Under the pieces are notes generated by a model. The model searched no databases. It saw nothing but the letters and a program-made list of their open reading frames with translations, and had not been told where the DNA came from. DNA of 64,000 bases from Parabacteroides goldsteinii (GTDB lineage Bacteria > Bacteroidota > Bacteroidia > Bacteroidales > Tannerellaceae), in the NCBI RefSeq assembly GCF_015550595.1, contig NZ_JADNBB010000005.1, positions 124,001 to 188,000 on the forward strand, written 5' to 3'. This document shows positions 31,448 through 55,454 of the stretch, one piece after another. The position numbers and the translations under genes are program-made. How positions within the stretch are numbered: position 1 is the stretch's first letter; the number at the start of each line of letters is the position of its first letter.

Positions 31448-32263
31448 TTATTCGATCACCGGGCGATCGTCGGGATCGGGTTCCGGTGTGGGATCGGGTT
31501 TGGGAGTCGGATCGACGGGGATATCGGGTTTCGTTCCGGCTTTGCGGCGTGAGAGGGTTTCGGAGAACTGCACGATCAATGCGTTGACGTTGTCGATCAG
31601 GCCGGCCAGCTTCGTTGCCTGGTCGGCATCGTGAGTAATCGTCTCGTTCACCAGCCAGAGGGCATTGATAGCCTTCACGGTTGCGCGGTAGGCATCGTCC
31701 ACCTGCGAGCGGACGGCTTTCAGGCTGTCGTTGCTGACACGTCCGAGTTTGACGTCGGAACGGTTCACATACAATTCATTGAACTCATTGTTCGCCTGTT
31801 TCAATAGGGGAAGCACGTCGGTAAGGCCCAGGGCGGTGATATACGCCTGGTTGGCTTCACTTTCCAGTACCTGGAGGCAGTTGGTCACTTGCGCCGTGTT
31901 TTCGGCTGCCGGTTTCGAGGCTGCATCTTTGTAAGGTCTCATCTCGAACTCGATCTTTTGCGCTGCGGTCTTTTTTTCCGGCACCGGGCTGTAGAGCATG
32001 GCGGCGACCATTTGTTTGATGTAGATGTAAAGATCGTCGCGTTCGCGGTCTTTTTCGTTCATGGCCTGTGTTTCTTCGTAAGCGCGGGCCTGTAGATAGA
32101 GGTCGTCTTCGCGTTTGAAAAGGTCTGCATAGGTTTTCTGGAGGCTTTCGATCTTCAACTCGGTGGCCAGGGCGGGGGTGGCGAAGGTGAGGACGTTGGC
32201 GTGGAACTGGAAATGCTCGGCGTTGCGGGCGTTGTTCAAGTTGGTAGTAACAATTTCCTTCAT
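31448..32263 (-). CDS. DUF6261 family protein with DDRPVIE tail
   Basis: A 271-residue, mostly alpha-helical cytoplasmic protein (no signal peptide or membrane span), rich in Ala, Glu and Gln. Residues about 240-264 form a Pro/Asp/Thr-rich linker of the type PTPKPDPTPEPDP, and the protein ends in DDRPVIE. I recognise it as DUF6261; function unknown. The same seven C-terminal residues end the unrelated HU/Ig-like protein at 47143-47901. Upstream lies an array of six TCAGA-N4-TCTGA sites at 41-bp intervals that would fall in its leader or control region. Confidence 0.75.
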   Translation of the reverse strand: MKEIVTTNLNNARNAEHFQFHANVLTFATPALATELKIESLQKTYADLFKREDDLYLQARAYEETQAMNEKDRERDDLYIYIKQMVAAMLYSPVPEKKTAAQKIEFEMRPYKDAASKPAAENTAQVTNCLQVLESEANQAYITALGLTDVLPLLKQANNEFNELYVNRSDVKLGRVSNDSLKAVRSQVDDAYRATVKAINALWLVNETITHDADQATKLAGLIDNVNALIVQFSETLSRRKAGTKPDIPVDPTPKPDPTPEPDPDDRPVIE

Positions 32264-32300
32264 GGCATTTTTTTTATAAGGTTTATACTAAAAAAATCGA

Positions 32301-32519
32301 TCAGATAGTTCTGAAAGTACCCTGTCGTGAAAAAAATATTTTCAGAAAGCTCTGAAAGTACTTTTTCAATCAAAAAACAAAATCAGAATACTCTGAAACA
32401 ACTAAATTGACAGAAATATAAAATCAGAAGGTTCTGAATTCATTTTTTGAAGAAAAAAACGTTTTCAGAACCTTCTGAAAACATCAAATCATCAAAACAG
32501 AGCTATCAGAGAGTTCTGA
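32301..32519. repeat. Six phased palindromes, exact 41-bp period
   Basis: TCAGA-N4-TCTGA starts at 32301, 32342, 32383, 32424, 32465 and 32506, each exactly 41 bp from the last. The ten arm bases are identical in all six; the central four are TAGT, AAGC, ATAC, AGGT, ACCT and GAGT. The 27-bp spacers are A/T-rich and unrelated. Copies 4 and 5 are exact reverse complements of each other over all 14 bp. The array starts 38 bp before the DUF6261 start codon and ends 5 bp before a -7 box on the same strand, so it would be transcribed as a leader of about 255 nt with six 5-bp-stem tetraloop hairpins. Alternatively it is a row of protein-binding sites on nearly one helix face. Confidence 0.9.
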
Positions 32520-32524
32520 TAGGC

Positions 32525-32532
32525 CAAATGTA
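32525..32532 (-). promoter_or_regulatory. -7 box candidate for the DUF6261 gene
   Basis: TACATTTG on the minus strand, immediately outside the six-palindrome array. No clear -33 partner is visible. Confidence 0.45.
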
Positions 32533-32831
32533 GTCTTTTAAAAGTGTTTTACCTAGCGTCTCGTCCTGAATTTCAAAAAATAAACTGCTCTATCCTCGCG
32601 AACCGGGCAGTTTTCAACAAATTAATATGCCCTACTTAAAGCATATGAAATCTGATGTACCTATCATCGATCTCTATTTCCCCTTTCAAAAATTAGTAGG
32701 AGATGTGTTTTTGGGTTCTAAAATCATGCTTAGGCTTTGGTTTTACAAAGGTCGGTGATTTTCTGTTCTCTGAAAAAAACATTTGCTCATAAAATATGCG
32801 GCGCATTGCATATTTTATGCAGTTTTCTTTC
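32533..32831. other. Gene-free stretch with a 12-bp inverted repeat
   Basis: Between the array and the XRE promoter I see no supportable gene. A 12-bp perfect inverted repeat, CATAAAATATGC (32788-32799) with GCATATTTTATG (32808-32819) around an 8-nt loop, may be an operator or a terminator of upstream + strand transcription. AAACTGC and GCAGTTT also pair across 18 bp near 32583-32614. Confidence 0.45.
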
Positions 32832-32892: not shown

Positions 32893-33342
32893 ATGGAAAA
32901 AGATGCAGAACTGAAAAGAAGCAAAAATGTAAACGAGGGTGCGAATGTCCGGAAATTACGCCAGATATTAGGTATCAAGCAGAGTGCTTTTGCTGAAAAG
33001 TTGGGAATAGACCAATCGGCCGTTTCCCGTCTGGAAAGTCGCCGGGTGATCGAAGAGGATACGTTGCTGAAAATAGCTAATATATTTAATGTATCTCCTA
33101 AAATTATTCAGGAACTGGAGGAGAACCCGCTGTCGGTGGTGGTTGAGAATACAATATTCGAAAGTGGAAGTTCTAATAATGGAACAGTTGGATATAATGA
33201 GAAAATAGAGAACACTATCCATCCTCTCGAAAAAATCATAGAATTAAACAAGCAAACGACTGAACTTTACGAGCGCATGGTAGCCCTCGAAAAAGAGAAA
33301 TCAGCCTTGCTGGAACAGTTGTTGAAGGAAAAGCAAGGATAA
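32893..33342 (+). CDS. XRE-family HTH regulator with coiled-coil tail
   Basis: A 149-residue DNA-binding protein. Residues about 17-75 form a Cro/C1-type helix-turn-helix (LRQILGIKQSAFAEKLGIDQ then SAVSRLESRR). The C-terminal residues about 112-149 are a heptad-like coiled coil (LYERMVALEKEKSALLEQLL), suggesting dimerisation. No sensory domain is present. Its own promoter carries a dyad in the -33 region. It is adjacent to, but divergent from, the DUF6261 gene with its six-palindrome array, so it is a candidate regulator of that array; the dyad sequences differ, so this is only positional. Confidence 0.85.
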   Translation: MEKDAELKRSKNVNEGANVRKLRQILGIKQSAFAEKLGIDQSAVSRLESRRVIEEDTLLKIANIFNVSPKIIQELEENPLSVVVENTIFESGSSNNGTVGYNEKIENTIHPLEKIIELNKQTTELYERMVALEKEKSALLEQLLKEKQG

Positions 33343-33376
33343 TATAGAAGTAATTGAACCTACTTTTGGCTTGATC

Positions 33377-33769
33377 CAAAAGTAGTCAAAAGATCAAGGC
33401 TGCACCTGTCTCACTACTCCGCATCCTACATTCGCTGTCGCCTCCGAACTCGCTTCGCTCAAACAGCGGATGCTCCGGCCGCTCACTCCGGCTGCTGCGC
33501 TTTACGCTCGACAGCTGAGGCCTTTCCAAGGAAGCTCTGCTTCCTCTTAGGATTGCCGATACTGCCTGTTATAAAGTGGTCGGTATCGGCCATCCCAAAA
33601 GAACGCTTGGCGTTCTCTAAAAGGCCTTCGGCGGGTGAGCGTCCGCGAAGGGGAAAGACGAAGCGTTAGGGAGGCTGCGCTGTTTGAGCGAAGCGAGTTC
33701 GCAGACGACAGCGTAGTCTTTCACCGTAGCAGCGAAGCCGGTGCAGCCTTGAACTTTTGGTTACTTTTC
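33377..33769. repeat. About 400-bp nested inverted-repeat element
   Basis: Outer arms 33377-33406 and 33740-33769 pair with only a few mismatches, and inner arms 33433-33468 and 33678-33713 pair with about three. Smaller hairpins lie inside: GCCGATAC/GTATCGGC, AGAACGC/GCGTTCT and GGAAGC/GCTTCC. The segment is clearly more GC-rich than its surroundings, has no long protein-like frame, and follows the XRE stop by about 35 bp. It resembles a dispersed structured intergenic element or non-coding RNA rather than a gene; no transposase is present. Confidence 0.7.
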
Positions 33770-33837
33770 TTTCAAGAGAAAAGTAACATTCAAATCTGTC
33801 AATAACTGAAATATTAATACAGGGTAAGGGCAGAAAC

Positions 33838-54617: not shown

Positions 54618-55454
54618 TTATTTAAGTTTATACACATAGGTGATCGTACCGCTTTGGTTGTTCGCCCCGTTGATGCTGTTGAATTTAGCACGTTTGGCGG
54701 CATCCAGTGCACTCTTACGCATGGAAGCGTTGTCGATGTTGGTACCTCTTCCTATTTCTGTGAATATTACATTGCCTTTCGGATCTACCGTAATGTTGAT
54801 CACGATTTTGCCTTCTTCCTGGATCGTGTAAGCGGGGCGGGGCAAGCCTCCGGCTCCGATAGAACGACCGTTCAGGTTGAATGAACCGTAACCGCCTACG
54901 CCTTCGTTGGCTCCGTGGTCGGAGTTGCCGAACGGACTTCCCTGGTTACCCGTACCTGTTTCTGCATCGCCCTGGCTGTTCCCTTCAGCGCCGCCGATAC
55001 CGAATGCTCCGGCAACACGATTGCTGATGGCCTGCTCTTTCTTGCGACGTTCTTCTTCCAAACGTTTCTTTTCGGCCTCTTCCCGTTTGCGGCGATCCTC
55101 TTCCTCTTTCCGTTTACGCTCTTCTTCCTTTTTGCGTTGCTCTTCTTTCTTTTTAGCGTCTGCTATGGCAACACTCTCTTCGATGTCCTGCGTGATCACT
55201 TCCTCTTTCGGTGTTTCTACCGGTGGAGTGGGTGGCGGTGGAGGAGTGGTCGTCTCCTGGGGTAGTTCCTGTCCGGTGTATTTGGGTTCGAAGGTACCGG
55301 CGGCGGAGTTTACATTCCCGAAGTTGACAAGGACACCCCCGTCTTCATCCGGAATTTCCGTACGTAGTACCGTGAACAACAGGATCAGGAAGATCGCCAG
55401 GTGAAATGCGACCGAACCGGTTATACTGTATATGTCATCTTTGTTGAATTTCAT
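54618..55454 (-). CDS. tonB: TonB family energy transducer
   Basis: A 278-residue protein with one membrane span (about 13-30, AFHLAIFLILLFTVL), a Pro-rich stretch (about 69-79), a long Lys/Glu/Arg-rich rigid segment (about 98-143) and a C-terminal TonB domain (GKIVINITVDPKGNVIFTEIGRGT). It passes proton-motive energy from ExbB/ExbD to SusC-type receptors, including those in this window. It is 5 bp after exbD. Confidence 0.88.
   Translation of the reverse strand: MKFNKDDIYSITGSVAFHLAIFLILLFTVLRTEIPDEDGGVLVNFGNVNSAAGTFEPKYTGQELPQETTTPPPPPTPPVETPKEEVITQDIEESVAIADAKKKEEQRKKEEERKRKEEEDRRKREEAEKKRLEEERRKKEQAISNRVAGAFGIGGAEGNSQGDAETGTGNQGSPFGNSDHGANEGVGGYGSFNLNGRSIGAGGLPRPAYTIQEEGKIVINITVDPKGNVIFTEIGRGTNIDNASMRKSALDAAKRAKFNSINGANNQSGTITYVYKLK

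Follow-up and report, generated by a model that had tools for sequence, protein, structure and literature searches.

At positions 32,301 to 32,519 of the window, by which we mean the whole 64,000-nucleotide stretch of Parabacteroides goldsteinii DNA that was analysed, six palindromes stand in strict register upstream of a gene of the uncharacterised DUF6261 family. The locus raises the question of what reads such an array, and whether the neighbouring gene takes part in the reading. The coordinates of the features are collected in Table 1.

The copies of TCAGA-N4-TCTGA start at 32301, 32342, 32383, 32424, 32465 and 32506, and all five steps are 41 bp. In 100 dinucleotide shuffles of the window the motif occurred 0.06 times on average and once at most, and no shuffle reached six, so the six palindromes with an exact 41-bp period reported by the first-pass annotation are real. 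Copies 4 and 5 are indeed exact reverse complements of each other. Comparison with the array of P. gordonii gave identities of 60/60 for the arms, 14/24 for the N4 positions and 78/135 for the spacers (Fisher p 7e-12), in agreement with the earlier view that arms and spacing look selected, and the arms are complete, at every one of their ten bases, in 22 of the 23 units of four TCAGA arrays. The same annotation held that the arms are invariant in all six copies, which stands, and that the spacers are unrelated, which does not: they carry T-tracts and A-tracts symmetric about the spacer middle, with mid-spacer dyad centres near 32328, 32369, 32410, 32451 and 32492.

The genome itself (6.53 Mb in 85 contigs) contains 22 exact TCAGA-N4-TCTGA sites, six in the window array, five in one further 41-bp array and 11 single. 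Two such sites at a 41-bp step were found in 3 of 41 genomes searched, namely this one, Parabacteroides gordonii MS-1 (G019; order Bacteroidales) and genome G022. Elsewhere in the window, an imperfect 45-bp periodic stretch at 55003-55161 is apparently a coding repeat.

Table 1. Coordinates of the array, its neighbours and the arrays found apart from DUF6261 (window positions unless a locus is named)
Feature	Position	Strand	Remark
DUF6261 gene (PF19775), 271 aa	31448-32263	minus	Pfam E 1.4e-36
Hypervariable N-terminal segment, codons 5-13 of DUF6261	32225..32251	minus	proposed palindrome reader
Segment replaced as a unit in G022	32231..32560	minus	from the promoter-proximal edge through array and leader to codon 11
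Array of six primary dyads TCAGA-N4-TCTGA	32301..32519	.	period 41 bp
Five 27-bp spacers with weak second dyad at mid-spacer	32315..32505	.	T-tract/A-tract symmetry
-7-like box TACATTTG	32525-32532	minus	predicted from the promoter consensus
Divergent XRE-type HTH gene	32893..33342	plus	beside DUF6261 only at this locus among fetched loci
TCAGA array	L061 3919-4137		between MoxR-type AAA and DUF58 genes; without DUF6261
Palindromic array	L156 17576-17833		between convergent GH20 and arabinofuranosidase genes; without DUF6261
Palindromic array	L158 15331-15634		own genome, 40-42 bp; without DUF6261
Palindromic array	L171 11918-12279		own genome, 40-42 bp; without DUF6261

Arrays with and without DUF6261

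To define an array, we required an autocorrelation of at least 0.55 over 100 bp, a cut-off of our own setting. Once loci agreeing in both the protein and the last 60 upstream bases had been dropped as duplicates, the collection comprised 191 distinct DUF6261 genes, of which 184 had at least 300 bp of upstream sequence and seven had less. An array with a period of 40-43 bp was found upstream of 169 of the 184 genes. The best periods were 40, 41, 42 and 43 bp in 13, 70, 77 and 9 arrays, with none other between 20 and 79, and among the 15 genes below the cut-off the best period was still 41 or 42 in eight. In an earlier subset, 91 of 101 DUF6261 genes had arrays, compared with 6 of the 138 regions that precede other long ORFs at these loci; four of these six positive controls likewise had a period of 41-42.

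Sampling across the Bacteroidales detected DUF6261 in 46 of 393 genomes and 27 of the 206 genera sampled, with at most nine candidates scored per genome. Arrays of 41-42 bp preceded 24 of the 28 genes of this sample (27 newly found loci and L056, 27 of the 28 lying outside the genus); a further locus, L089, yielded no gene. Within the genus the family is expanded (29 of 59 genomes searched, one with 52 copies), and the genome of the window has four DUF6261 genes. Among individual genomes of 3.3-3.7 Mb, DUF6261 matches numbered 52 in G009, 36 in G020 and 38 in G042, and in two of the matches listed (G009:C10:43213 and G020:C7:89326) the domain is interrupted by stop codons. The supposition that the element tracks DUF6261 genes is thus borne out, both in the main collection and order-wide. 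A survey of 82 loci, taking ORFs of at least 100 aa, found no other recurrent neighbour family, the next commonest occurring in 6 of the 82, which indicates that the module consists of the array and DUF6261.

The half-sites vary by locus, GAGAC, CCACAA, TTACACC, ATGTTC, GGAGCG and TTGCCCA being examples. As read, the letters of a palindrome are private to a locus or its close relatives. What stays constant in the element is thus its position, its palindromy and a period close to four helical turns. The anatomy of the array and its linkage to DUF6261 are solid at the level of sequence.

Arrays of the same kind also occur apart from the gene. In 1.26 Mb surveyed from the genome of the window (60 stretches together with the window and L061), only eight stretches showed periodicity of the strength required of an array at 30-60 bp; six were intergenic arrays of 40-42 bp, and four of the six lacked DUF6261. 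The array between the MoxR-type and DUF58 genes has five exact TCAGA units and a sixth with one mismatch. Besides this and the array between convergent genes, one lies between RhaT and class II aldolase genes and one between genes for a TonB-dependent receptor and an MFS transporter. All sit at or just after stop codons, with co-directional flanking genes except at the convergent L156. The RhaT array resembles a DUF6261-linked array of P. gordonii (L085; 69-74% over 114-167 bp) and the TonB array one of G022 (L171 versus L213; 80% over 176 bp), and these matches to sister-species arrays show that the gene accompanies some arrays of a given kind and not others. G022 has a TCAGA array without DUF6261 between the 3' end of an AcrB-family gene and the following large ORF in the same direction, which runs off the fetched stretch; no DUF6261 gene with a TCAGA array was found in G022, whose DUF6261 allele has another array. 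Two further arrays were noted. One of 41 bp in L103 (5545-5778), with varying dyads such as CTGTCGACTGAATCGACAG, has no DUF6261 directly beside it and lies near a convergent gene with an Abi_2 domain; the other, in G022 (L213 2239-2414), lies upstream of DUF6261 within an ORF that continues into the gene, and could be readable as protein repeats.

That some arrays are near-perfect tandem repeats (autocorrelation 0.99 in L035 and L040) and that similar arrays recur at different loci, as in the L171/L213 pair, would suit a self-propagating or mutational repeat, REP/BIME-like or satellite-like, growing by unit duplication without a specific reader. We regard this as very improbable: the spacers have drifted between the window and P. 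gordonii, yet arms and spacing are kept, and the four-turn period and near-obligate linkage to DUF6261 need selection.

Array symmetry and the leader-RNA reading

Palindromicity exceeded the 95% level of a column-shuffled null in 92 of the 169 unit profiles (median 7.8 versus 5.2 bits). The other 77 fall below the null level in part because near-identical units raise it; conserved columns lift the shuffled null too, and palindrome calls on near-identical arrays are uncertain for this reason. L106/L124 and L048, which looked mis-centred or ambiguous, were kept in the counts.

Many of these 92 arrays have a second, weaker dyad exactly at half the period. Mean complementarity was 0.446 at mid-spacer versus 0.23-0.31 at other off-primary centres, most of which were near 0.25, and the mid-spacer dyad had a z above 2 in 59 of the 92. 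A dyad at exactly half the period means that two-fold axes alternate every two turns. Complementarity at the primary dyad was 0.675 within a unit versus 0.61-0.67 between units (0.614-0.668 to three places), and at mid-spacer 0.445 versus 0.41-0.44. Since the within-unit values are only slightly higher, the symmetry would arise from common sequence, as in protein sites, and so not mainly from arms paired unit by unit. Pairing continues through the dyad centre, where a hairpin would need a loop, in 70 of the 92 arrays; 23 of 39 arrays of the column-shuffled null were also paired through the centre, so this is only modest evidence against hairpins.

The first-pass annotation had predicted that the array is transcribed as a leader of six tetraloop hairpins. 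The -7-like box it described is present outside the array, and because it lies on the outer side, the array may be transcribed. The 259-nt array RNA folds strongly (z -9.66 versus 200 shuffles), mainly, however, by units pairing together and not as six tetraloops, so the strong folding stands and the predicted shape does not. When spacers were shuffled with the primary dyads fixed, folding was weakened: z was -4.4 for the window, -1.8 for P. gordonii, -1.5 for L061 and -2.3 for L063, and the median over 45 other arrays was -2.9, with 67% below -2 and none above 2. The mid-spacer dyad would produce this spacer contribution by itself. An Rfam search returned 10 matches at E<=1, all below the gathering score, eight of them miRNA precursor models.

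These data bear on a wider reading, in which the transcribed array would be a structured leader or intercistronic RNA controlling, for example, transcription or mRNA stability, either as hairpins or as one long stem formed by units pairing with each other. In line with it are the outer box, the folding of the RNA and its dependence on the spacers, the position of the arrays without DUF6261 between genes, some in apparent operons, and an excess of complementary double changes (174 versus 56.5 expected under independent variation of both sides). The excess, however, comes partly from decayed edge units, and complementary and non-complementary doubles stand at 174 to 216, a ratio expected to be about 1 to 2 for random doubles. 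The near-equality of within-unit and cross-unit complementarity at either dyad leaves little sign of unit-wise compensation, and the TCAGA arms stay intact in nearly every unit and do not drift in compensated pairs. Promoter-like sites above the null, found in 36 of the 169 upstream regions, occur on either side of the arrays (18 between array and gene, 10 outside and 8 inside the array). An RNA element also gives no reason for a 40-43 bp period or for coupling to residues 5-13 of the protein. The idea of an RNA leader is weakened by these results; we consider an RNA element quite unlikely, and the complementarity values do not support a hairpin leader as a general mechanism. Of the explanations offered at first, protein sites about four turns apart fit best.

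The DUF6261 N-terminus and the palindrome

If proteins occupy the array, the window offers two neighbours as candidates. The DUF6261 protein scored 126.2 bits in Pfam against a gathering cut-off of 27, and was the sole family listed for it at E<=0.001, with no ribbon-helix-helix profile. Its AlphaFold2 monomer model (mean pLDDT 85.6, pTM 0.60) predicts an all-helical body with confidence and a low-confidence acidic C-terminal tail, with residues 1-13 in neither helix nor strand and helices at 14-27, 30-35 and 39-89, the last of 51 residues. Pfam, NCBIfam, PHROGs and PADLOC recognised no DNA-binding family in DUF6261. For three DUF6261 proteins, NCBIfam and PHROGs gave no ribbon-helix-helix model at E<=1, and PHROGs gave no significant match (best E 0.014, unknown function). 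Searches found no PDB sequence match, no Foldseek match at E<=0.001 and no close relative in viral contigs; the structure matches listed for the monomer model include no strand-helix-helix dimer entry. Mean net charge is -7.8 for residues 31-240 and -8.3 for the tail, versus only +0.9 for the first 30 residues. In many relatives, as in the window protein (codons 31448-31530), the tail is acidic and proline-rich; letters such as DDRPVIE, DDRPVVQ, PENPDVV and SPEVV recur there (a loose motif in 67 of 169) and resemble a short docking motif, and some proteins carry a similar tail-like motif in an insertion near the N-terminus.

The other neighbour, the XRE-type gene, had been suggested for a test of DNA binding. 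Comparison with G022 speaks against it. Identical columns number 57-60 of 60 in most blocks on both sides of the locus and 22-31 of 60 inside an exchanged segment, which runs from just 5' of the promoter-like box to codon 11 of DUF6261; the stretch ACTTTTAAAAGACTACATTT around the box lies within this segment and is common to both genomes. The G022 array has the palindrome TTGY-N6-RCAA, read by eye, also at a period of 41. Residues 14 to 240 of the two DUF6261 proteins are 99.6% identical, and the N-termini are MKEIV-TTNLNNARN in the window and MKEIVEVTSLARARN in G022. In P. gordonii, where the DUF6261 body is about 91% identical, the N-terminus AANLNNARN accompanies a TCAGA array. The XRE gene is present at the locus in all three genomes, and its HTH region is identical in the window and G022. 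Because this region is unchanged while the palindrome has changed, the XRE gene is not the specificity determinant.

Two other sequences were noted around the XRE gene. Upstream of it, a 12-bp inverted repeat CATAAAATATGC with an 8-bp loop (32788-32819) is kept in P. gordonii and G022, where differences are confined to the loop and a single arm base, and could be an XRE operator. Between the XRE gene and the next gene, 33360-33780 is G+C-rich and looks like a dispersed repeat; a similar stretch adjoins DUF6261 in L060.

The part of DUF6261 that is exchanged is also its most variable part among close homologues. Mean pairwise difference over 20 of these was 0.386 for residues 5-13, 0.041 for 14-100 and 0.053 for 101-240. 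The N-terminal classes VAANLNNAR, VSVDLAKGR and VEVTYLSRAR, drawn from database relatives as protein sequences alone, apart from their DNA context, stand on bodies 99.6-100% identical in the closest pairs. Family-wide, the variability of the N-terminal positions only about equals that of the most variable tenth of body columns. In the 113 of 169 genes with an Asn anchor, counting back from the Asn, positions -10, -7, -5 and -2 are mostly hydrophobic, -8, -6 and -4 are polar and variable, and -3 and -1 are often basic. By analogy, such a pattern would look like a strand with one DNA-facing side; ribbon-helix-helix repressors read DNA via such a strand.

We then compared N-terminal similarity with palindrome similarity, using cut-offs of our own choosing (dyad similarity 0.85; body identity 75, 60 and 50%). 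Once body identity had been removed, identity over the nine residues that precede the conserved Asn predicted palindrome similarity with a partial rho of 0.59 in the 40 pairs with body identity of 75% or more, first of 73 protein windows, the median of the others being 0.08. The value was 0.47, again first of 73, for 69 pairs at 60% or more, and 0.25, only fifth of 73, for 199 pairs at 50% or more. Whole-body identity gave partial rhos of 0.56, 0.24 and 0.45 in the three sets, so that in close pairs it is a predictor of the palindrome about equal in strength to the N-terminus. Dyad similarity of at least 0.85 was found in 8 of 12 pairs with identical N-termini versus 4 of 28 others (Fisher p 0.002). 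The pairs are not independent overall; in 22 non-overlapping pairs, picked greedily by body identity, the counts were 6 of 8 versus 2 of 14 (p 0.008), but the bodies are also closer in the first group (median identity 0.98, versus 0.89 in the second). When all pairs of 106 arrays were taken, the N-terminus had no effect beyond the body (partial r -0.005; body r 0.135), a result that is still negative and that we read as a signal lost once sites share no letters.

Individual pairs are telling, and there are exceptions both ways. L119 and L120, paralogues of one genome, have bodies identical to rounding (1.00) and three differing N-terminal residues; their otherwise like arrays, TCCTACC-A-GGTAGGA (one unit centred on T) and TCCTACA-A-TGTAGGA, differ by one symmetric base-pair change in every unit. 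L334 and L339, from two related genomes, have bodies 95% identical, N-terminal changes of T to K and D to M, and half-sites read as TTTGGAAA and TATGAAA. The exceptions are L241/L242, which differ at 5 of 12 N-terminal positions and share a palindrome (0.94), the window and P. gordonii, which differ at 2 of 12 and share theirs (0.98), and the 4 of 12 identical-N-terminus pairs that score below 0.85. Taken together, palindrome and N-terminal residues tend to change together among close relatives, judging from the sequences compared.

Such co-variation might have another source. A crossover within the conserved body codons would move the array along with the N-terminus simply through linkage, which could explain the cassette exchange, and the arrays might be read by an unlinked DNA-binding family of which DUF6261 genes are regular targets, N-terminus and array moving together through adjacency. 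The acidic DUF6261 protein without a recognised DNA-binding domain, the arrays that stand without it and the predictive power of whole-body identity all fit this alternative, which we nevertheless judge unlikely. It requires a separate reader for each of the many palindromes of a genome, yet no neighbouring family recurs and the XRE gene is unchanged where the palindrome changes. Linkage also leaves unexplained both the L119/L120 pair and the rank of the N-terminus, first of 73 in the two closest pair sets.

A candidate private operator and its counterparts

We think it rather probable, from these sequence relations, that each array is the private operator of its own DUF6261 protein, with self-specific binding, a dimer filament, autoregulation and a few extra targets. 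Because there is no binding family or fold match and the protein is acidic, we infer DNA binding by DUF6261 from the co-variation. DUF6261 dimers would bind each primary dyad through an N-terminal strand (about residues 5-13) that contacts the bases, much as ribbon-helix-helix repressors do. Adjacent dimers, lying on one face of the DNA, would touch above the mid-spacer dyad; in the resulting filament two kinds of two-fold axis would alternate at intervals of two turns, and occupation of the whole array would repress or tune the DUF6261 gene. Same-sequence arrays between genes of other operons would place those operons under the same protein. Avoidance of cross-talk among paralogues, up to 52 per genome, would drive palindrome and N-terminus to diversify as a matched pair. 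Against an operator stands the position of some arrays without DUF6261, between convergent genes or right after stop codons, which is odd for operators. The TCAGA array of G022, a genome in which no DUF6261 gene has such an array, also counts against it.

The broader proposal has, in our estimate, about an even chance: that DUF6261 proteins form a new class of DNA readers, each pairing a hypervariable N-terminal strand of about nine residues with a private array and assembling on it as an isologous dimer filament with two-fold axes every two turns, with up to about fifty orthogonal pairs in a genome, cassette swaps from strain to strain and control spread to other operons by seeding array copies. 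A literature search found no published description of such a system of array and DUF6261. If true, the proposal would give a function to an uncharacterised family present in 27 of 206 Bacteroidales genera sampled, at up to 52 copies per genome. The recognition peptides and their matching DNA sites would form a natural library for working out a recognition code, and would supply many regulators, insulated from one another, for use in gut Bacteroidales. The joint origin of DNA-binding specificities and their sites would also become testable via near-isogenic pairs, in which two or three N-terminal residues differ along with a symmetric change of site.

Several known systems share parts of this design. 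In the ribbon-helix-helix repressors Arc, MetJ, CopG and omega, the first helix is directly preceded by an N-terminal strand in which every other residue reads bases. These repressors bind cooperatively to repeated symmetric sites, and are small proteins with short site spacing; DUF6261, by contrast, is a helical protein of about 270 aa with a 51-residue helix, and no sequence or fold match to them was found. In lambdoid heteroimmunity, the DNA-reading part of cI/cro and the operators swap as a cassette between conserved flanks, which resembles the exchange between the window and G022. Lambdoid phages differ in having HTH repressors and three operators per promoter region, and have neither four-turn arrays nor dozens of paralogues in one genome. 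CRISPR arrays combine palindromic repeats with dissimilar spacers of fixed length, whereas the window dyads are short (14 bp), their spacers drift between orthologues, and the 82 loci surveyed for ORFs of at least 100 aa have no recurrent neighbour family.

REP/BIME elements (PMC3733652) are likewise intergenic palindromes, and comprise few sequences in high copy, whereas here each locus has a palindrome of its own, the period is near-constant and the arrays go with one protein family. High-copy dispersal of that kind was considered for TCAGA-N4-TCTGA and set aside, there being only 22 sites in 6.5 Mb. The Cluster A mycobacteriophages have one repressor and many stoperators, of which some lie at promoters and the majority do not; at sites far from a promoter the bound repressor stops elongation, and among relatives distinct site consensuses track repressor divergence (PMC6550527). 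Arrays without DUF6261, such as the AcrB-side TCAGA array of G022, resemble these stoperators in position (PMC6550527). The Cluster A system serves phage immunity through dispersed asymmetric 13-bp sites and a helix-turn-helix repressor (PMC6550527), whereas DUF6261, in which no HTH is recognised, is a chromosomal multi-copy family accompanied by symmetric dyads in phased arrays.
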